DNA of 64,000 nt from Lachnospiraceae bacterium (GTDB lineage: Bacteria > Bacillota > Clostridia > Lachnospirales > Lachnospiraceae). Under the pieces are notes generated by a model, which had not been told where the DNA came from, did no database searches, and saw nothing but the letters and a program-made list of their open reading frames with translations. Positions within the stretch are counted from its first letter, which is position 1; each line of letters begins with the position of its first letter. Below, in pieces: positions 8,711 to 17,894 of this stretch. Location of the stretch: assembly GCA_029225065.1 (NCBI GenBank), contig JAQXVT010000035.1, positions 1-64,000 of the forward strand. Reading direction: 5' to 3'. Made by a program: the position numbers and the translations under genes.

Positions 8711-9317
8711 AACGGGGCATGAGTACCGGAAACAGTATCCGATCATCAGGCCGAGCGTATTGAAAGAGCTGGCGCACGGAATCTGTGTCAGCAATCTGGC
8801 GTTTCATACGGGAAAGCAGATGAACTGTAGTGAAGAAATGTGCCACAAGCTGGCGATAGCCGGATTTCTGCATGACATCGGAAAGCTGGAGCTGGCAAAG
8901 TACGTAAGAGGTCATGAGGATGAGACGCTGATCATCGAGGAAATGAAGTATGTGAGGCGTCATTCCAAGCTGGGCGCGGATTTCCTTCAGAGAATCGGCT
9001 ATTCGGAGGAGATCGTGGAGATGGTCCGGTTTCATCATGAAAACTGTGACGGCTCTGGCTACCCAAATAACCTGACAAGAGATGAGATTCCGCTCGGAGC
9101 CAGAATCATTCGTGTCTGTGACGTGTTTGCAGCACTGACGGCTGACCGTCCGTATCGGAAAGCGTTTGATGTGGATGCGGCGATGGAACTGATGATCGAT
9201 GAGTCGAGGTATTATGATATCGAAGTGTTTCTTGCATTTATGCGGGTCGTGAACGAGGACGGCCTGAAAAATATGATGGATAACGAAGAACTGGAGAATG
9301 CGCTGCGTTTACTGTAG
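8703..9317 (+). CDS. HD-GYP-like domain protein
   Basis: A 204-residue stand-alone HD-domain hydrolase. HDIGKL with the HD pair is at residues 57-58, a second metal His is in RRHSKLGADFL (about 83), and HHENCDGSGYP (about 110-120) matches the HHE..DGxGYP part of HD-GYP c-di-GMP phosphodiesterases. There is no membrane segment or receiver domain. Translation is coupled to hemZ by an 8-base overlap. Cyclic dinucleotide hydrolysis is inferred from family, and the diguanylate cyclase at 20222 would be a possible source of substrate. Its 3' end overlaps the convergent next gene by 9 bases. Confidence 0.85.
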   Translation: MSETGHEYRKQYPIIRPSVLKELAHGICVSNLAFHTGKQMNCSEEMCHKLAIAGFLHDIGKLELAKYVRGHEDETLIIEEMKYVRRHSKLGADFLQRIGYSEEIVEMVRFHHENCDGSGYPNNLTRDEIPLGARIIRVCDVFAALTADRPYRKAFDVDAAMELMIDESRYYDIEVFLAFMRVVNEDGLKNMMDNEELENALRLL

Positions 9318-10610
9318 CGCATTTTCTGCGTCTGTATCGTCGAATTCAGTGAGTGCAGCAGAGAGGTCGCCCATGAGTGCATTGGTAAAATCTTCAGCAA
9401 GAGAAATTTCCCACGTTTTGCCGTTGTTGGAAAAGGAAAGGGAAAGATCAGTCGTGTGAGTTCCGGTTGTGTTTTTCAGCGTTTCCAGCAAAAGACGGGC
9501 TGTTTCATTTGATTGTGCCACCGGATCGTCACGGATTGATTTTCCAGTGGAAGCGTAAGAGAGCAGCGCTTCTCTATAGGTATGCACAGCGGCAGCCATA
9601 TCGGGACCGGTGATGCGGATGTCCGCGTCTGCATGATCGTCATCTTCATGACAGGTCAGAATTTCCCAGTCGTAGCTGTCAGCAAGCAGGGAGGAAAAGG
9701 CGTCATCGATCTGTGCGGCATACGTTTCATTATAGGTAGAAAAGACATCGTTTAAGTTCAGGTAATCTTTCCATCCGGCAGCATCAAGCGCAGTCAACGC
9801 ATCAAGATGCACACCGAGCACTGTTTTTGCGGGGAGAATATAGGGATCATTCATGTACGAGATAAATCCTCCGACGAGTGCGTCCTCCAGTTCATCGTCG
9901 ACAAGGACCGTCCATCCCTGTTCCTGTCGGGTAAGATGAAACCAGGCAGTCGTTACGACTTCGTCATAGGAATTTTCAGAAAGGGTGTCACAGAGCAGCT
10001 GGTAATAATCTGCGGTAGTCATGGGAGTGGAGAAAATGGAGACGGAACGTTTTAAAATTTCACGGCAGAGATCCTGTGCCAGCGCATACATGTCGATGTT
10101 TGTGAGTGTTGCGCTGACCTCAGCCGTGTCACCGTCAATTTTTTCGTTGTGGATGTGATACTGAAAATGCTGAAAAAAGAGTGCAGCAGCTTTGGCGGCA
10201 TCCTCACCGGGTGAGTCGGCGGCAGGATTTGAAGTGATCAGATTTTCATATGAGACAAAAGACTGGATTGTGGCATCGTCGAGCTCTTCAATGCGTGAGA
10301 GTTCCTGTTCGACAGCAAGAGAAGGCTGATCGAGCCGTCGCTCATTCCAGAAAAAAAGAGCACCGACGAGCAGCAGCTGAAGTGCGAGAATGGCCGGAAT
10401 CCCAAGGCGGAACGACAGATGTCTTGTTTTGTGACGGAACACGTACATGCCCGTAAGGATGCCGATGCTGCCGAAGAAAAAAGCAGTACCAAACAAAACA
10501 CGCTCCGGAACACGCCACCTGTGACGAATCGCACGGCGCTTGTCTATCCCCATGACGGCAAAGCCAAACAGGTTAATCAGGATCAGATATAGAATAAGGA
10601 ATAGTTTCAT
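9309..10610 (-). CDS. DUF1294-like membrane domain fused to an unknown extracytoplasmic region
   Basis: A 433-residue protein. Residues 1-85 resemble DUF1294: a first membrane segment (LYLILINLFGFAVMGIDK), the RHRWRVPE motif, then two further hydrophobic segments ending near ALQLLLVGALFFW. DUF1294 proteins are normally about 80-130 residues with nothing attached. Here some 330 mostly acidic, helical residues follow and are predicted to lie outside the cell. I do not recognise this part. The gene is convergent with the HD gene and overlaps it by 9 bases. Function unknown. Confidence 0.65.
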   Translation of the reverse strand: MKLFLILYLILINLFGFAVMGIDKRRAIRHRWRVPERVLFGTAFFFGSIGILTGMYVFRHKTRHLSFRLGIPAILALQLLLVGALFFWNERRLDQPSLAVEQELSRIEELDDATIQSFVSYENLITSNPAADSPGEDAAKAAALFFQHFQYHIHNEKIDGDTAEVSATLTNIDMYALAQDLCREILKRSVSIFSTPMTTADYYQLLCDTLSENSYDEVVTTAWFHLTRQEQGWTVLVDDELEDALVGGFISYMNDPYILPAKTVLGVHLDALTALDAAGWKDYLNLNDVFSTYNETYAAQIDDAFSSLLADSYDWEILTCHEDDDHADADIRITGPDMAAAVHTYREALLSYASTGKSIRDDPVAQSNETARLLLETLKNTTGTHTTDLSLSFSNNGKTWEISLAEDFTNALMGDLSAALTEFDDTDAENALQ

Positions 10611-10949: not shown

Positions 10950-12485
10950 ATGAAAAAAGCAGTAATCGCGTTTCTGGTAATTGGTATTGTCGGAGCGGGC
11001 GGATACGGTGTCTATCATCATTTCTTTGAAAATACAGCGCAGCAGCGTGTGTCTTCCACAAGCGAAGATGCGGTCTATGTAGACCAGGTATCAGTGATCA
11101 CAGGATATGGAAGTACGGGAAGTACAGTGGCAGACCGCTATGCAGGTGAGGTGGAACCGCAGGCTACACTGGAAGTAAAACTTGAAAATGAGCGCACGGT
11201 AAAGCAGTGTTTTGTAAAAGAGGGACAGGAAGTCAAGGAAGGGCAGCGTCTGTTTGTATATGATACAAAGGATGACGAAGATAAGCTTGCTCAGGCAGAG
11301 ATTGATATTGAGCGTGCTCAGGGTGATATTGAACTGCTGAATAAGAGCATTGCACAGAATGAAAAAGATAAAAAGAATGCGAGCGCTGATGATCAGCTTT
11401 CTTATACAACGCAGATTTTAAGTGATCAGAATGAGATTAAGCAGAAAGAATACGAGATCAAATCAAAGCAGCTCGAAATTAAAAATCTGAAAGAGACCAT
11501 TTCAAGTGCGACCGTGACGGCAGAGATGGCCGGTATCGTACAGTCAATCACAGATCCGAACAGTTCTTCTGACTCTTATTCTTATTCCTCTTCAGGTGAT
11601 TCTACGGTGTATATCAAGATTCTTGCGGCAGGGGATTACAGGATTAAAGGAAGCGTGAATGAGCAGAATCTGCAGAATCTGCAGGCACTCTATGATTCCG
11701 CGACGCCGGTGCTTGTGCATTCCCGCGTGGATGCGACTAAGACATGGAATGGTACGATTTCAGAGATTAAAACGGACAAGGCAGAGGACAACAGTGATTC
11801 CTCTTATATGTGGGGAAACAGCTCAGATTCGGGAAGCTCCAATTATACGTTTTATGTGGAACTGGACACATCGGAAGGACTGATTCTTGGACAGCATGTT
11901 TATATGGAAGCGGATGAAGGCCAGCAGGAAGTAAAGACCGGCATGTGGCTTGGTGAGTACTATATAGAGCAGGATGATGACGGTACAGCGTATGTATGGC
12001 TGGCAAACAAAAATAATGTGTTGGAGAAACATCCGGTTACGCTTGGCGAATATGATGAAGATCTGATGGAGTATGAGATTACGGATGGACTGTCTGAAGA
12101 TGACTATATTACGGTTGTACAGGAAGACCTGACCGAGGGAACGCCAGTCATTTATAATGATTACAGTTCAGATGGAACGATGGACTTTGACAGCATGGAT
12201 AATTCTGGTGAGATGCTGGATAATTATGGAGATGACAGTGCGGACATGTCAGCATATGACAATGGTTCGATGGATAACGGGGATTACAGTTCCTACGATG
12301 AAAATTCAATGGACGGAGCAGACTATAGTTCCTATGATGAAAATTCCGCAGATGGTTTTGATGACGGCTCATATGATGATACAGGTTATGATATCTATGA
12401 TGCGGATCAGGAAGACGGAACTTATATAGATGACTCAGACAATGTTCTGTTAAACGGAGCAAATTCGCTCGGAACAGTTGGATGA
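10950..12485 (+). CDS. Efflux transporter periplasmic-type adaptor subunit (HlyD/MacA-like) with acidic tail
   Basis: A 511-residue adaptor of the membrane-fusion protein family, anchored by an N-terminal membrane segment (about residues 4-25). A lipoyl-like half-motif (VKEGQEVKEGQRLFVYD) leads into an alpha-hairpin of about 65 residues, then the second lipoyl half (TVTAEMAGIVQSI) and beta-barrel parts. From about residue 404 to 495 the protein is a low-complexity tail rich in Asp, Ser, Tyr, Met and Asn, with a 13-residue duplication based on YSSYDENS. Acidic tails of this kind are not usual for MacA. ATG 10950 follows AAAGGGG. It is first in a four-gene ABC transporter cluster; the exported substrate is unknown. 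Confidence 0.85.
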   Translation: MKKAVIAFLVIGIVGAGGYGVYHHFFENTAQQRVSSTSEDAVYVDQVSVITGYGSTGSTVADRYAGEVEPQATLEVKLENERTVKQCFVKEGQEVKEGQRLFVYDTKDDEDKLAQAEIDIERAQGDIELLNKSIAQNEKDKKNASADDQLSYTTQILSDQNEIKQKEYEIKSKQLEIKNLKETISSATVTAEMAGIVQSITDPNSSSDSYSYSSSGDSTVYIKILAAGDYRIKGSVNEQNLQNLQALYDSATPVLVHSRVDATKTWNGTISEIKTDKAEDNSDSSYMWGNSSDSGSSNYTFYVELDTSEGLILGQHVYMEADEGQQEVKTGMWLGEYYIEQDDDGTAYVWLANKNNVLEKHPVTLGEYDEDLMEYEITDGLSEDDYITVVQEDLTEGTPVIYNDYSSDGTMDFDSMDNSGEMLDNYGDDSADMSAYDNGSMDNGDYSSYDENSMDGADYSSYDENSADGFDDGSYDDTGYDIYDADQEDGTYIDDSDNVLLNGANSLGTVG

Positions 12486-12504: not shown

Positions 12505-13188
12505 GTGATCCTGAAACTGGAGCATATTTATAAGGATTATATTCAGGGGAAGATGACAGTCCCGGTACTCAAAGATGTCAGTCTTTATGTGGAGGAAGGA
12601 GAGTATGTGGCAATCATGGGACCGTCTGGTTCCGGTAAGTCTACACTGATGAATATTATCGGATGTCTGGATTTGCCGACTTCCGGCAGCTATGAACTTG
12701 CCGGAAGTGACGTTCTTTCTTTAAATGAAAATAAACTGGCAGATCTGCGGCTCGGCACGATCGGATTTGTATTTCAGAATTTTCAGCTGCTTCCGCGTAT
12801 GTCGGCGCTGGAAAATGTGGCACTTCCGCTTGTGTATGCCGGAGTACGCAAAAAGGTGCGCAGAGAGCGGGCAAGGGAAGCTCTTGTGCGGGTTGGACTT
12901 GAGGATCGTACGGCGTTCAATCCGACACAGCTTTCGGGAGGTCAGAAGCAGCGTGTGGCAATCGCGCGGGCTATGGTGAACAAGCCGAAGATTCTGCTTG
13001 CAGATGAGCCTACCGGAGCACTGGATTCCAAGTCGAGTGCACAGGTTATGGAATTGTTTCAGAAGCTGAATGAGGAAGGTGTAACGGTAGTTATGATTAC
13101 GCATGATCCGGGAATTGCACATCACGCAAAGCGAATTGTGGATATTTTTGACGGAGAGATTTCAGAACACAGGGAGGCGGTTCAATGA
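12505..13188 (+). CDS. ABC transporter ATP-binding protein, MacB/LolD type
   Basis: A 227-residue ATPase. Walker A GPSGSGKST, Q-loop FVFQNFQLLP, signature LSGGQKQR, Walker B ILLADEPTGALD and the H-loop THD are all present. The sequence is of the MacB/LolD/FtsE-like class that pairs with FtsX/MacB-fold permeases. GTG 12505 is chosen because GGGAGG lies 8 bases before it; a TTG at 12478 would overlap the preceding gene. The stop overlaps the next start as ATGA (13185-13188), which couples translation of ATPase and giant adaptor. It presumably forms one complex with the permease at 16638. Confidence 0.94.
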   Translation: MILKLEHIYKDYIQGKMTVPVLKDVSLYVEEGEYVAIMGPSGSGKSTLMNIIGCLDLPTSGSYELAGSDVLSLNENKLADLRLGTIGFVFQNFQLLPRMSALENVALPLVYAGVRKKVRRERAREALVRVGLEDRTAFNPTQLSGGQKQRVAIARAMVNKPKILLADEPTGALDSKSSAQVMELFQKLNEEGVTVVMITHDPGIAHHAKRIVDIFDGEISEHREAVQ

Positions 13189-16100
13189 AAAAGGCAGGAA
13201 TGGTAGTAATCAGCCTTGTAGTGACGGCGGCTCTGGTCGGTGGAGTCGGATACGGCGCGTATTATACAATGCAGGGGAAAAAGGAGCCGGTAGAGGTAGT
13301 ACCGGTTATCAATGTGAATTCCGGCTACTGGGGAGACGATGAAACCGTATATGGAACAGTTACTTCACAGGTGGCACAGACCATCACGCTGAATGAAGAA
13401 TATCAGATTGATAAGATTTATGTTTCTGCGGGCGATACAGTAAAGGAAGGAACACCGCTTTTTTCCTATGATATGACACTTCCGGAGCTCGAGCTTGAGA
13501 TGGCGGAGCTTGATCTGCAGGCAAAGGAACTGGAAAAGGTTAAGCTGGAAAAAGATCTGGATAAACTGAAAAAGACAAAGACTTCCGCATCACTGGAACA
13601 TGACAGCATGGTAAAGACCGCTTCCGCAGATGAAGTGATTCTTGATGACGGAAATGATGCACCAGTACCAGCTGGAAATGATCCGGCAGAAAACCAGACG
13701 GAGCCGGCAGCAGCTGATGTGACTTCCGGCGGCAGCATTTCTGTAGACGGTGTAGAAGCGGTTGACAGCGTACCGGAAGCAGCGAAAACAGAGAACCAGA
13801 GCGGAGAAGAAAGCGGCAATGGTACAGTAAATACACAGGACAGTACGGTGATCGATGCCGTTTCGAGTTATGAAACCCTGGTATCCATGATAGATGTGCT
13901 GTTTCAGGCGCATGGTGATTCACTGACGGCTGAAGAAATTGGCGGGGCAGTGAAAGACTGCGTGGCATATTACCGGAAAAATCTTGCAGATAAAAAAACT
14001 GTGTCCGATGGGACAGAGAAAATTTCTTATGTGCTGAAAGACAGTGTGAAGGAAGCACTTGGGGAAGACGGGACAAAGGAACTGGAAGAGAGTGCAAAAC
14101 TGATGGAAAAATATCAGATCCGTTATGTGGAGCTTTTAATCCGGGAACTGGATCCTGAAAATCCAGGTGATTTTTCACAGGCAGTGCAGGAGGCCCGGGA
14201 ACAGTATGAGGATCTGACGGCGGATGCAAAGACGGAGGTGTCCAATTTTGACCGTCTGACCGAGATGGAAACGAAGACAGCATCGCAGGAGACGCTTCCG
14301 GAGAATCAGACAGAAGATCCGAACGGCAATTCCGATCCGGTTGAAACAGAGCTTCAGACTGAGATGGAGACGGAAAGCGAAGCAGGAACCGAAACCGAGA
14401 CGGGAACGGAAGTACAGACGGAAACCGAAACCGAGACGGAAACGGAAGTACAGACAGAAAACGAGACGGGAACGGAAATACAGACGGAAACCGAAACCGA
14501 GACGGAAACAGGAGCACAGACGGAAACCGAGACCGAAACGGAAACGGGAGCACAGACCGAACCCGAGACAGAGACGGAAACGGGAGTGCAGACGGAAACC
14601 GAGACAGAAACAGAAACGGGAGCACAGACGGAAACCGAGACAGAGACGGAAACGGGAGCGCAAACCGAAACTGAAACAGAGACGGAAACGGGAGCACAGA
14701 CCGAAACTGAAACAGAAACAGAAACGGGAGTGCAGACCGAAACAGAGACGGAAACCGAGAGCGAGACAGAGGCACCGCTTCTGTATCCGGTAACGATTAC
14801 GAACGGGCGTATCAATGAGGAAGAGGCTGAAACAGTGGAGCTTCCGGCAAGTGTCACAGTTACCATTACGGCTGTGCCGGAGGATGGTCAGCAGACATTT
14901 ATGGGATGGAAAGTGACACCGGCGGATGTGGAACTGGCAGATCCTACGGCAGAGACGACAACGTTTGTGATGCCGGAGCACGCGGTTGAGATAGAAGCGC
15001 TTTTTTCAGAAAAGATAGATTCACGGATCAGTGCCTTTCTTTCTCTTGCGGAGACAGCACTTGGAGCAGACGGAGTGACACTGGATCATTATGATGCGGC
15101 AGCGTTGGAAACAGCACTCATTTATTATCAGGCAAATCTTGCAGTTGCCACGGATGATATCGTGGATGGAACTGTTACGACGATGGAAGAGTATCAGCTG
15201 GCGCAGGTCGTACAGAATTATCTGAAGGAAGCAGGAAAAGAAGAGCAGATTGCATATCTGCGGGGAAGATACAAACAGCTGTGTCAGATGTTCGTAAAAA
15301 CGCTGGTTGATGATCTGGAAACGGTTTTGAAAAACGATGGTATATCGCTGGTATCGAAACGAGAGGCATTTGAAAAGGCAAAGAAGGCATATGAGAATCT
15401 CGGTGATACCTGGCGGGACGAACTGGATCAGAGCGTATACAGCGATACAGGCAATGAGACAGAACCATCTGATGGAAGCTGGAGCCATAATGGCGAGACG
15501 ACACCGATTCAGGACAGTATGGATTCGACGGAGAGCCAGACAGGGGATGTTTCGGAGAGTGAGACAGAAGCGCCGACTGTGACAGTGCTTACCTACGGAG
15601 AACGACTGGCAGTATATGAGGTTGTTCTGATGATTCAGGAACTTGATCCGACGATTCAGGAGGATCTTTTGATTGAAAAGCTGAAAGAAGTAAGAGATGC
15701 TTATCTGGCATTGAGCGACGGACAGAAAGCGGCAGTCTGGAACAGTGATACGCTGATTTCTTTGCTGAAGCAGTACGGTTTGTGGTCGGAAGAACCGCAG
15801 ACGGAGCCGGGAGAACCGGATTTCCCGGATGACGTCGGCGGAGGATTCGACGATGGAGGGGATTTGGACTATACAGCAGAGGAATTAAAAGACCTGATCG
15901 ATGACAAAGAGCGGGAAATCAAGACATGTGATCTTGATATCCGTGAAAAGGAGCTGAAACTGGAGCAGAGCAAACGGATCGTAGACGGAAAAGTAGTCAA
16001 GAGTACGATGGACGGCATGGTGATCAGCATTGGATCTGCTGACGGGACTTCAGATACGGACGGGTATTTTGCAAAAGTGGCCAACACTTCCGGACTTTAT

Positions 16101-16619
16101 CTGAAAGGTACGATCGATGAACTTTCGGTCAGCAATCTGCATGAAGGCGATACGGTAACGGGCAATTCAGCAAACGGAATGAGCTTTACGGCTGTGATTA
16201 AGGAGGTTTCCCAGTATCCGGACCCGAATGGGGCAGAAAACCTGATGTATTACAGTGGATCACAGAATACGAATGTTACCTATTATCCGTTTTATGCACT
16301 GATTGAAGATTCGGAAGGAATTGAGGAGGGTCAGGCGACATTCCAGTTTACCGGAAGCGGCGAGGATTCCTCGAGCGATATTTATCTGCCGAAGTATCTT
16401 GTGCGTGAGGAGAGCGATGGAAGATCTTACGTATACAAGGATGATAATGGTAAGCTGAAGAAACAGTATGTAGGAACCGGAAAGACAGTTTATGATTATG
16501 CGATTCAGATAAGCTCCGGCCTTTCCATGGACGATAAGATTGCATTTCCATATGGTGATGATGTGACAGAGGGTGCACAGACGAAGGAAGTGGATAATCT
16601 TACTGCGCTGTCGGAGTAA
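13185..16619 (+). CDS. Giant membrane-fusion adaptor with surface-protein insertion in its hairpin
   Basis: 1144 residues, against about 350-500 for normal adaptors. Residues 1-130 hold a membrane anchor (VVISLVVTAALVGGVGYGAYY), the first lipoyl half (IYVSAGDTVKEGTPLFSYD) and the ascending helix. Residues about 900-1144 hold the descending helix (EREIKTCDLDIREKELKLEQ), the second lipoyl half (VVKSTMDGMVISIG) and the barrel domains. Between them, at the hairpin tip, lie: a Thr/Ser-rich linker; a helical unit; a Thr/Glu 12-residue repeat tract (about 390-527); an InlB-like repeat with FMGWKVTP and TFVMPEHAVEIEALF (about 533-608); and more helical units, two of which share ELDP and a later Val-x-Asn motif. 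In Gram-negative adaptors the tip meets TolC, which is absent here, so the insertion probably reaches into or beyond the cell wall. Confidence 0.85.
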   Translation: MKKAGMVVISLVVTAALVGGVGYGAYYTMQGKKEPVEVVPVINVNSGYWGDDETVYGTVTSQVAQTITLNEEYQIDKIYVSAGDTVKEGTPLFSYDMTLPELELEMAELDLQAKELEKVKLEKDLDKLKKTKTSASLEHDSMVKTASADEVILDDGNDAPVPAGNDPAENQTEPAAADVTSGGSISVDGVEAVDSVPEAAKTENQSGEESGNGTVNTQDSTVIDAVSSYETLVSMIDVLFQAHGDSLTAEEIGGAVKDCVAYYRKNLADKKTVSDGTEKISYVLKDSVKEALGEDGTKELEESAKLMEKYQIRYVELLIRELDPENPGDFSQAVQEAREQYEDLTADAKTEVSNFDRLTEMETKTASQETLPENQTEDPNGNSDPVETELQTEMETESEAGTETETGTEVQTETETETETEVQTENETGTEIQTETETETETGAQTETETETETGAQTEPETETETGVQTETETETETGAQTETETETETGAQTETETETETGAQTETETETETGVQTETETETESETEAPLLYPVTITNGRINEEEAETVELPASVTVTITAVPEDGQQTFMGWKVTPADVELADPTAETTTFVMPEHAVEIEALFSEKIDSRISAFLSLAETALGADGVTLDHYDAAALETALIYYQANLAVATDDIVDGTVTTMEEYQLAQVVQNYLKEAGKEEQIAYLRGRYKQLCQMFVKTLVDDLETVLKNDGISLVSKREAFEKAKKAYENLGDTWRDELDQSVYSDTGNETEPSDGSWSHNGETTPIQDSMDSTESQTGDVSESETEAPTVTVLTYGERLAVYEVVLMIQELDPTIQEDLLIEKLKEVRDAYLALSDGQKAAVWNSDTLISLLKQYGLWSEEPQTEPGEPDFPDDVGGGFDDGGDLDYTAEELKDLIDDKEREIKTCDLDIREKELKLEQSKRIVDGKVVKSTMDGMVISIGSADGTSDTDGYFAKVANTSGLYLKGTIDELSVSNLHEGDTVTGNSANGMSFTAVIKEVSQYPDPNGAENLMYYSGSQNTNVTYYPFYALIEDSEGIEEGQATFQFTGSGEDSSSDIYLPKYLVREESDGRSYVYKDDNGKLKKQYVGTGKTVYDYAIQISSGLSMDDKIAFPYGDDVTEGAQTKEVDNLTALSE
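14396..14765 (+). repeat. In-frame 36-bp tandem repeat encoding Thr/Glu-rich units
   Basis: About ten units, most of 36 bases, encode variants of TETETETETGAQ; unit ends vary as GAQ, GVQ, EVQ and EIQ. The DNA alternates GAAAC/GAGAC steps with synonymous changes between copies, so the protein repeat is kept while the DNA has drifted. The reverse frames give long but meaningless SV-repeat open frames. Copy number is likely to vary between strains. Confidence 0.9.
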
Positions 16620-16637: not shown

Positions 16638-17894
16638 TTGTTAGAGAATGTGAGACTGTCCTTTCAGGGCATCTGGTCGCATAAAATGAGATCGTTTCTG
16701 ACGATGCTCGGTATCATCATCGGTATCGCGGCGATCATTTCGATTGTATCGACGATTAAGGGAACAAACGAGGAGATCAAAAACAGCCTGATCGGAGCTG
16801 GAAACAATGCGGTGAATGTTCAGATCAATCAGCAGGGCTATGCACTGACAATTTATTCTTCATCAGATATCCCGTTTGGAATCCCGGAGGTGACCGACGA
16901 GACGAAGCAGGAAATTCTGGATCTCGATACGGTGGAGAATGTTACAAGCTACAAGGAGCGGCAGAGCCCGGATGGCATTTTTTATCAGGACAAAGCGATG
17001 TCAAGCGGCTGCATCCGTGGAATTGATGAGAACTATTTTGCAACTTCCGGCTATGTGATTAAGACAGGGCGGAATTTTGTGGAAGAGGATTATGCGGAGT
17101 TCCGCAAGGTGCTGATTATTGATACGAACGCGGCGAAAGCACTTTTTGAGGATGAATCGCCGATCGGTAAGACGATCGAGATCAGCAAGCAGCCGTACAC
17201 CGTTATCGGCGTTGCGGCTCAGGCCAACTCGTACGAGCCGACAATCACGAATCTGACACAGTACGACAGCTATGCGAGCAGCAAAATCAGCTATCTGTTT
17301 ATGCCGAAGACCTGCTGGCCGATCAGCTACTCATATGATGAGCCGGAAAATGTGATCGTAAAGGCAAAGAGTACCGATGATATGGAGAGCGCCGGCCAGA
17401 GCGTGGAGAAAATTTTAAATGCGACGATTTCTTCTACGCAGACGAATGCAAAATACAAGGCAGACAATCTGCTTGAGCAGGCGAGAAACATGCAGAAGTT
17501 AAGTGCGGCGACGAACAACCAGCTGATCTGGATTGCGAGCATTTCACTTCTGGTCGGCGGTATCGGCGTTATGAACATCATGCTGGTATCCGTTACCGAA
17601 CGAACGAGCGAGATCGGTTTGAAAAAGGCGATCGGCGCGAGAAAGAATACGATCCTCGGCCAGTTCCTGACGGAGGCGGCCGTGCTGACAAGCATGGGCG
17701 GAATCCTCGGTGTGATCGCAGGTATTATCATGGCGCAGGTGATCAGCAGGATATCGGGCGTCACGGTGGCTATCAGCGTCCCGGCGGCGGTGATCGCGGT
17801 GCTGTTCTCGATGCTGATCGGAATCGTCTTCGGACTGCTGCCGTCGATCAAGGCGGCGAACTTGAATCCGATTGATGCGCTGCGAAGAGAGTAG
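16638..17894 (+). CDS. ABC transporter permease, MacB/FtsX fold
   Basis: A 418-residue permease. One membrane helix near residue 20-42 (FLTMLGIIIGIAAIISI, the MacB N-terminal signature) is followed by an extracellular MacB periplasmic-core-like domain. Three C-terminal helices (about 295-410) make the FtsX-like core, including the RTSEIGLKKAIGARK motif between the first two. The start is TTG 16638 behind AGAAGGGGGAAAGGA, and no ATG fits better. It is last in the cluster, 18 bases after the giant adaptor. Together the four genes form a MacAB-like exporter with two adaptors; antimicrobial peptide, toxin or surface-molecule export are all possible. Confidence 0.93.
   Translation: MLENVRLSFQGIWSHKMRSFLTMLGIIIGIAAIISIVSTIKGTNEEIKNSLIGAGNNAVNVQINQQGYALTIYSSSDIPFGIPEVTDETKQEILDLDTVENVTSYKERQSPDGIFYQDKAMSSGCIRGIDENYFATSGYVIKTGRNFVEEDYAEFRKVLIIDTNAAKALFEDESPIGKTIEISKQPYTVIGVAAQANSYEPTITNLTQYDSYASSKISYLFMPKTCWPISYSYDEPENVIVKAKSTDDMESAGQSVEKILNATISSTQTNAKYKADNLLEQARNMQKLSAATNNQLIWIASISLLVGGIGVMNIMLVSVTERTSEIGLKKAIGARKNTILGQFLTEAAVLTSMGGILGVIAGIIMAQVISRISGVTVAISVPAAVIAVLFSMLIGIVFGLLPSIKAANLNPIDALRRE

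Follow-up and report, generated by a model that had tools for sequence, protein, structure and literature searches.

Why do the adaptor proteins of Gram-positive exporters retain an alpha-helical hairpin? With no outer-membrane channel on which it could dock, this hairpin has struck reviewers as puzzling or unexpected (PMC4338810, PMC4446572). The question is posed anew by an operon in a 64,000-nucleotide stretch of DNA (the window; positions 1 to 64,000 of contig JAQXVT010000035.1, assembly GCA_029225065.1) from a Lachnospiraceae bacterium. Its four genes encode, in this order, adaptor 1, an ATPase, adaptor 2 (P0001) and a MacB-type permease, and in P0001 about 750 residues separate the two helices that the short TolC-docking turn joins in a MacA-type hairpin. 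P0001 is almost certainly a split adaptor with a large hairpin-tip insertion in a two-adaptor, MacAB-like exporter.

The two adaptor halves of P0001

The frame of P0001 is uninterrupted by stops. Profiles of the two halves of its family were compared with adaptor 1, which has an ordinary hairpin, and the N half aligned with adaptor-1 residues 42-145 (probability 98.9%) and the C half with residues 155-400 (probability 99.9%; E values in Table 1). Thus, about 10 residues in adaptor 1 correspond to some 750 in P0001, the exact length of the insert being 748 residues between the profile matches and 756 by alignment. The N half contains a putative membrane anchor, the first half of the core and the ascending helix (98-129 in a low-confidence model), and the C half contains the descending helix (898-935, likewise from a low-confidence model), the second lipoyl half, the beta-barrel and the membrane-proximal parts. 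The N terminus is hydrophobic by reading, with a helix at residues 8-18 in a low-confidence model. Taken together, the two halves make up the core of a MacA-type adaptor, with its lipoyl, barrel and hairpin parts. This agrees with the original prediction, made from the sequence of the window, which had taken residues 1-130 and about 900-1144 for adaptor halves with about 700 residues between the ascending and descending helices.

The assignment to the MacA/Spr0693 type was borne out by searches with the family profile A2, which matched the structure of Spr0693 (5xu0) with an E value of 3.4e-28. E979 is invariant in both alignment sets, and Y1034 is invariant in one and conserved in at least 90% of sequences in the other; both align with Glu and Tyr residues of structure 4dk0 and are candidate equivalents of E231 and Y276, the conserved ring-interface residues of E. 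coli MacA (PMC8277102). Pfam gave only a weak lipoyl signal in P0001, and TIGR01730 matched it in two stretches, the better of which (906-1119) scored 58.2 bits and was under the cut-off of 94.9. However, adaptor 1, which is free of an insert, also scored only 59.9 bits (residues 61-400), so the insert need not explain the low score of P0001. When the genus family was searched against PDB profiles, sorting nexin-5 and huntingtin also appeared, at E values of at least 0.016; they were dismissed as chance helical matches.

Table 1. Features of the exporter locus and of the P0001 insert in the window
Feature	Position	Strand	Evidence
Adaptor 2 (P0001), MacA/Spr0693-type, hairpin-tip insertion	13185..16619	+	1144 aa
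Adaptor 2 N half, residues 1-135	13185..13589	+	hhalign vs adaptor 1, E 3.9e-17
Variable acidic linker, residues 136-220	13590..13844	+	median gap fraction 0.50 between genus members; charge
Helical unit A, residues 221-362	13845..14270	+	genus-conserved; homologous to B
Thr/Glu-rich linker, residues 363-533	14271..14783	+	net charge -55
InlB-type repeat, residues 538-609	14796..15011	+	PF18998, E 5.7e-11 (fragment)
Helical unit B, residues ~604-746	14994..15422	+	homologous to A
Variable acidic linker, residues 747-800	15423..15584	+	alignment, charge
Helical hairpin C, residues 801-866	15585..15782	+	matches end of A
Short acidic linker, residues 867-891	15783..15857	+	charge
Adaptor 2 C half, residues 892-1144	15858..16619	+	hhalign vs adaptor 1, E 3.1e-31
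Adaptor 1 (P0002, 511 aa), ordinary hairpin	10950..12485	+	TIGR01730, E 1.9e-16
ABC ATPase (P0003)	12511..13188	+	ABC_tran, E 1.3e-35; NF007826 (MacB ATPase part), E 2e-85
MacB-type permease (P0004)	16638..17894	+	MacB_PCD, E 7.1e-33; FtsX, E 6.7e-21
Membrane protein, divergent, upstream of the exporter operon	9309-10610	-	conserved neighbour

The insertion in related operons

The gene was matched in all 35 other genomes of the same genus and in 44 of 60 genomes overall, the window's own included. At the level of the order, the C half was matched in 71 of 393 genomes at 1e-6; these comprise the window's genome, G013, G025 and G042, 50 further genomes that were added, 5 more that were also taken in and 12 that were left out. 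Two of the 50 added operons (L118 and L119) belong to the window's genus. For each adaptor we determined the effective linker, i.e., the number of residues between the N-half and C-half profile matches. Of 89 loci, nine were excluded (seven cut at contig ends; L039 and L062, with an open adaptor-1 start), and in the remaining 80 complete operons adaptor 1 had effective linkers of -20 to 28 residues (median, -12, which is also the value in the window), whereas those of adaptor 2 spanned 57 to 1040 residues (median, 299.5), with no overlap between the two. The insert was present in 80 of 80 adaptor 2s and in none of the 80 adaptor 1s. An 81st pair, L127, gave -12 and 40 residues, respectively; L126, from one of the 5 genomes also taken in, is cut at a contig end and was excluded from the measurement. 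The insert was thus found in every one of the 81 complete adaptor 2s, and always at a single point: the match to the N-half profile (111 positions) ended at 98-110 and that to the C-half profile (254 positions) started at 1-13, constant to within about a dozen profile positions. In a FastTree phylogeny of the adaptor halves from 165 adaptors (81 adaptor 1s, 81 adaptor 2s and three single adaptors from other families), adaptor 1 and adaptor 2 formed clades with supports of 0.991 and 0.970. The tree suggests that they are two old paralogues, and the hairpin-tip insertion marks the adaptor-2 paralogue.

The recurrence of the gene in the genus and of the insert in all adaptor 2s shows that the insert is not an assembly artefact, one of the outcomes that had been named as fatal to the prediction. 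An error of assembly or annotation, or a fusion of separate genes, has a practically negligible probability, because the same arrangement is found in independently assembled genomes of many genera.

Inserted adaptor 2s were seen in f1 and f8, two families of the order, as well as in L033 (Eubacterium sp. UBA3279), which was the only one found by the scan of genome contigs; among viral contigs, the family gave no relative. In the phylum, the adaptor-2 profile was matched in 6 of 299 genomes at 1e-25, and the four matches outside the class lie in open frames of 385-456 residues, which leave no room for a comparable insert.

Content and turnover of the insert

All eight segments of the P0001 insert are net negative, and its 748 residues carry a total of -134 charges. 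The Thr/Glu repeats, InlB-like repeat and helical repeats that had been noted at first sight were all recovered. A Thr/Glu tandem array lies at 14387-14743 (period, 36 bp; 84% matches; score, 413). The isolated InlB-type fragment matched PF18998 with 42.7 bits (cut-off, 23.6), a match that was not listed by whole-protein scans of P0001. Unit A is homologous to unit B (hhalign E 1.3e-10), and its end is matched by hairpin C (E 1.2e-6), but the direct comparison of B with C was not significant (E 0.045; probability, 1.2%). Among members of the genus, median pairwise identity was 0.56 to 0.57 in the adaptor halves, 0.29 to 0.32 in the helical units and 0.22 to 0.27, with many gaps, in the linkers, with the exception of the linker preceding the descending helix (0.41); up to 496 pairs were compared, fewer for some segments and 78 for the 747-800 linker. 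In this genus, therefore, the insert units diverge faster than the adaptor halves.

Outside the genus, the content of the insert is largely different. A domain of about 90 residues with the signature GxGTxxxPY...GSFLN (GSGT domain) occurred in 35 of the 81 adaptor 2s but in none of the 81 adaptor 1s. The profiles of units B and C matched 30 of the 81 adaptor 2s, all from the window's genus and including all 30 of its complete members, and the unit A profile matched the same 30 and L033, which is itself among the training rows of the profile. The remaining 16 adaptor 2s contain other sequence, some of them low-complexity repeats only; low-complexity types across inserts are Thr/Glu, Ser/Asp and Pro/Glu repeats. 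Whole-protein scans gave InlB-type repeats in 5 of 34 adaptor 2s, the window's own being seen via the fragment, and individual inserts contain Big_2 (L114, E 3.7e-16) or an FctA-type isopeptide domain (L110, E 1.5e-12). As anticipated for homologues, the insert thus varies across the 81 adaptor 2s while the halves stay conserved. The inserted units look undescribed at the level of sequence: the GSGT domain had no PDB match at an E value of 1 or less and no Pfam match better than 0.11, units B and C had no Pfam match over the cut-off (best, DUF7020; E 6.9e-4, 20.3 bits versus 25), and the best PDB match of unit A had an E value of only 0.055. Two members of the family stand apart in their unit content. 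L045 has an insert of 313 residues and seems by reading to retain unit A alone, so its matches to B and C may be unit A itself. L047 (3614-7930) is the longest adaptor 2 (1439 aa), and its B-aligned region of 420 residues contains, by reading, two B-like units.

Such turnover, with insert lengths of 40 to 1040 residues and low-complexity linkers, would be expected if one adaptor tip, having no TolC to dock on, simply accepted functionless, drifting sequence. However, adaptor 1 experiences the same setting and is insert-free in 80 of 80 operons, no adaptor 2 lacks the insert, and the helical units are kept throughout the complete members of the genus. Tolerated bloat is therefore scarcely probable.

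Some of the modules are of types known from InlB-type and Big_2 surface proteins, and the insert might accordingly be a surface receptor or display module carried by the pump, for example an adhesin or a site at which phages or the host make contact. In line with this, the C motif was found in two large surface-type open reading frames of the genus, L121:1546-5001 and L122:1-4293 (E 2.4e-5 and 2.7e-4 in whole-genome searches; 2.8e-8 and 1.1e-7 in a small set of reading frames); judged by sequence, A and C share their end motif with surface proteins. Unlike in such proteins, the modules of P0001 are enclosed in the adaptor hairpin, its C-terminal end has by reading no LPXTG-type wall-sorting signal, and some inserts in the family are very short. 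Moreover, a search for the GSGT domain in 10 genomes gave nine matches in eight of them, all at the adaptor-2 place, and in 13 genomes the B/C profile was matched 12 times, 10 times within the adaptor-2 family and only twice, weakly and partially, in the other surface-type frames. These searches indicate that the folded modules are mostly dedicated to the adaptor-2 tip position. On their basis a generic adhesin was set aside, and we regard a surface receptor as quite improbable.

Operon setting and a possible role at the cell wall

Domain searches found the MacB-type exporter gene set in one operon of the window, with an ATPase and a permease matching both MacB_PCD and FtsX, which confirmed the predicted company of an ATPase, a MacB-fold permease and a second adaptor. 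The start of the ATPase gene is an assumed TTG at 12511; the mechanical open reading frame opens at 12478. The last part of adaptor 1 (12150-12485) encodes, by reading, a tail of some 100 residues that is acidic, of low complexity and rich in S, D and Y. The order adaptor-ATPase-adaptor-permease recurred in 74 of the 89 loci, and seven were cut at contig ends. In the other eight (L042, L045, L060, L078, L082, L084, L088 and L100), no ATPase reading frame was found between the adaptors; their ATPase may be located elsewhere or borrowed. Matches to rpsB and tsf lie near the operon in 26 and 23 of the 89 loci, respectively, which are lower bounds because the flanks are short. A putative serine hydroxymethyltransferase, read from sequence, recurs upstream in 28 loci, and the divergent membrane protein, which we take to be of the DUF1294 type, adjoins the operon in 13 loci (the window and 12 others) from several genera. 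With these recurring neighbours, the position of the operon looks vertically kept and housekeeping rather than that of a mobile immunity cassette. The window's own genome has three sortase matches and no match to OEP (TolC family). Its only other MacB_PCD match is a 1658-residue FtsX-like permease (L128:2963-7939; G000, contig C64) that is preceded by an ABC ATPase and, over several hundred residues, reads as coiled-coil-like; it may be another exporter-type permease in which a very large insert lies outside the cytoplasm.

The core of this pump is already known, and the tip insertion of the adaptor is the part that appears new in the literature searched; the original suggestion of a new exporter type would hold for the insertion and not for the pump core. 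Like MacAB-TolC, the system has a two-part adaptor core and a MacB fold, but the MacA tip docks on TolC, whereas the P0001 tip carries an insert in a genome without an OEP match. Like YknWXYZ of Bacillus (adaptor YknX), it combines a Gram-positive adaptor with an ATPase and a MacB-like permease, but YknWXYZ has a single adaptor and a membrane protein, YknW, as its fourth component; it protects from a peptide toxin (PMC8277102, PMC4338810). Spr0693-Spr0694-Spr0695 of Streptococcus pneumoniae also has one adaptor, in which the hairpin turn comprises 22 untraced residues, Pro142 to Gly163 (PMC5768738), versus 750 inserted at the P0001 tip. Two adaptors per transporter are known from TriABC-OpmH and, as a fused double adaptor, from DSY0927 of Desulfitobacterium, but TriABC belongs to the RND pumps and has a channel in the outer membrane, and the parts of the two papers available to us mention no tip domain insertion in either (PMC4338810, PMC4446572). 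Adaptor hairpins vary by heptads, some have a further helical section, and extra domains occur at the N or C terminus (PMC4446572). We found no description of a domain inserted at the hairpin tip of a Gram-positive adaptor in the available parts of the open-access literature, which excludes preprints and most subscription papers.

Since MacA, YknX and Spr0693 each form a six-membered tube alone, adaptors 1 and 2 would, by analogy, co-assemble into one hexameric tube on the permease, in which the ordinary hairpins of adaptor 1 would build the tube and those of adaptor 2 would end in inserts. A published model puts the apex of Spr0693 at a height of 154 A over the membrane, a distance similar to that of the inner wall space (PMC5768738). 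A tube of this kind would have its mouth roughly 15 nm from the membrane, close to the peptidoglycan's inner face. From there, the inserts would project into or through the wall as acidic, flexible tethers that bear small folded modules, and their lineage-specific modules would recognise lineage-specific wall or surface partners; the insert at the Gram-positive wall would then be the counterpart of the hairpin tip at TolC. The composition of the insert resembles that of wall-spanning and surface regions. That the insert docks or steadies the outlet of a mixed-adaptor tube in the wall layer has, in our judgement, an even chance of being right. For an unstructured loop tied at both ends (3.4 A per residue), 300 residues would reach about 50 nm and 57 residues about 10 nm, so spanning of the wall is possible for many inserts, not all. 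Of the original interpretation, the tip insertion and the exporter gene set are thus supported, whereas docking on or spanning of the wall stays at the level of what we infer.

Several observations weigh against a role in the wall. No peptidoglycan-binding Pfam domain was listed in the adaptor 2s scanned (34 and 53 proteins, two sets that share the window protein and L033/L070). The smallest inserts (effective linkers of 40, 57 and 82 residues) are too short to span a thick wall, and a fixed wall-docking role would not require wholesale replacement of the content between genera. Tip lengthening is not unique to adaptor 2: in three more distant genomes of the order, from other families (L123, L124 and L125), a single adaptor precedes the ATPase and permease and has an effective linker of 80-90 residues, read as a longer coiled-coil hairpin and not as a low-complexity or domain insert. 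Adaptor-2 inserts at the lower end of the size range do not exceed this length, and only kind and scale set adaptor 2 apart. Co-assembly of both adaptors is an assumption, and confidence in the structure models is low (mean pLDDT, 42.8 and 43.2). Finally, the inserts are net negative in 81 of 81 adaptor 2s (median, -57), but the adaptor core, with which alone they were compared, is also acidic (median, -26).

The charge also bears on our main rival explanation, in which the insert handles the substrate: at the mouth of the tube, a flexible acidic brush carrying small binding domains would capture cationic peptides or prevent their re-entry, with modules tuned to the substrates of each lineage. 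Consistent with this, LL-37, against which a relative gives protection, is a cationic peptide (PMC5768738), the module types occur only or almost only in adaptor 2 in the genomes searched, and the inserts diverge fast. The acidity of the core and the recurring neighbours, which look housekeeping as far as the short flanks go, speak against it, and we consider substrate handling unlikely. By analogy with Spr0693-0695 and YknWXYZ, the exported substrate may be antimicrobial peptides.

Docking in the wall can be taken one step further, to a wall-facing counterpart of the TolC duct in which one adaptor would form the tube and the other a lineage-swappable sleeve, anchored in or crossing the peptidoglycan, that would hand the substrate to the outside. 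This is possible but doubtful; if true, it would answer why Gram-positive adaptors retain their hairpins. The tip insert may be the pump's means of reaching into the cell wall, and since the tip of one adaptor is modified in every measured copy and that of the other in none, the question of the hairpin becomes directly testable.

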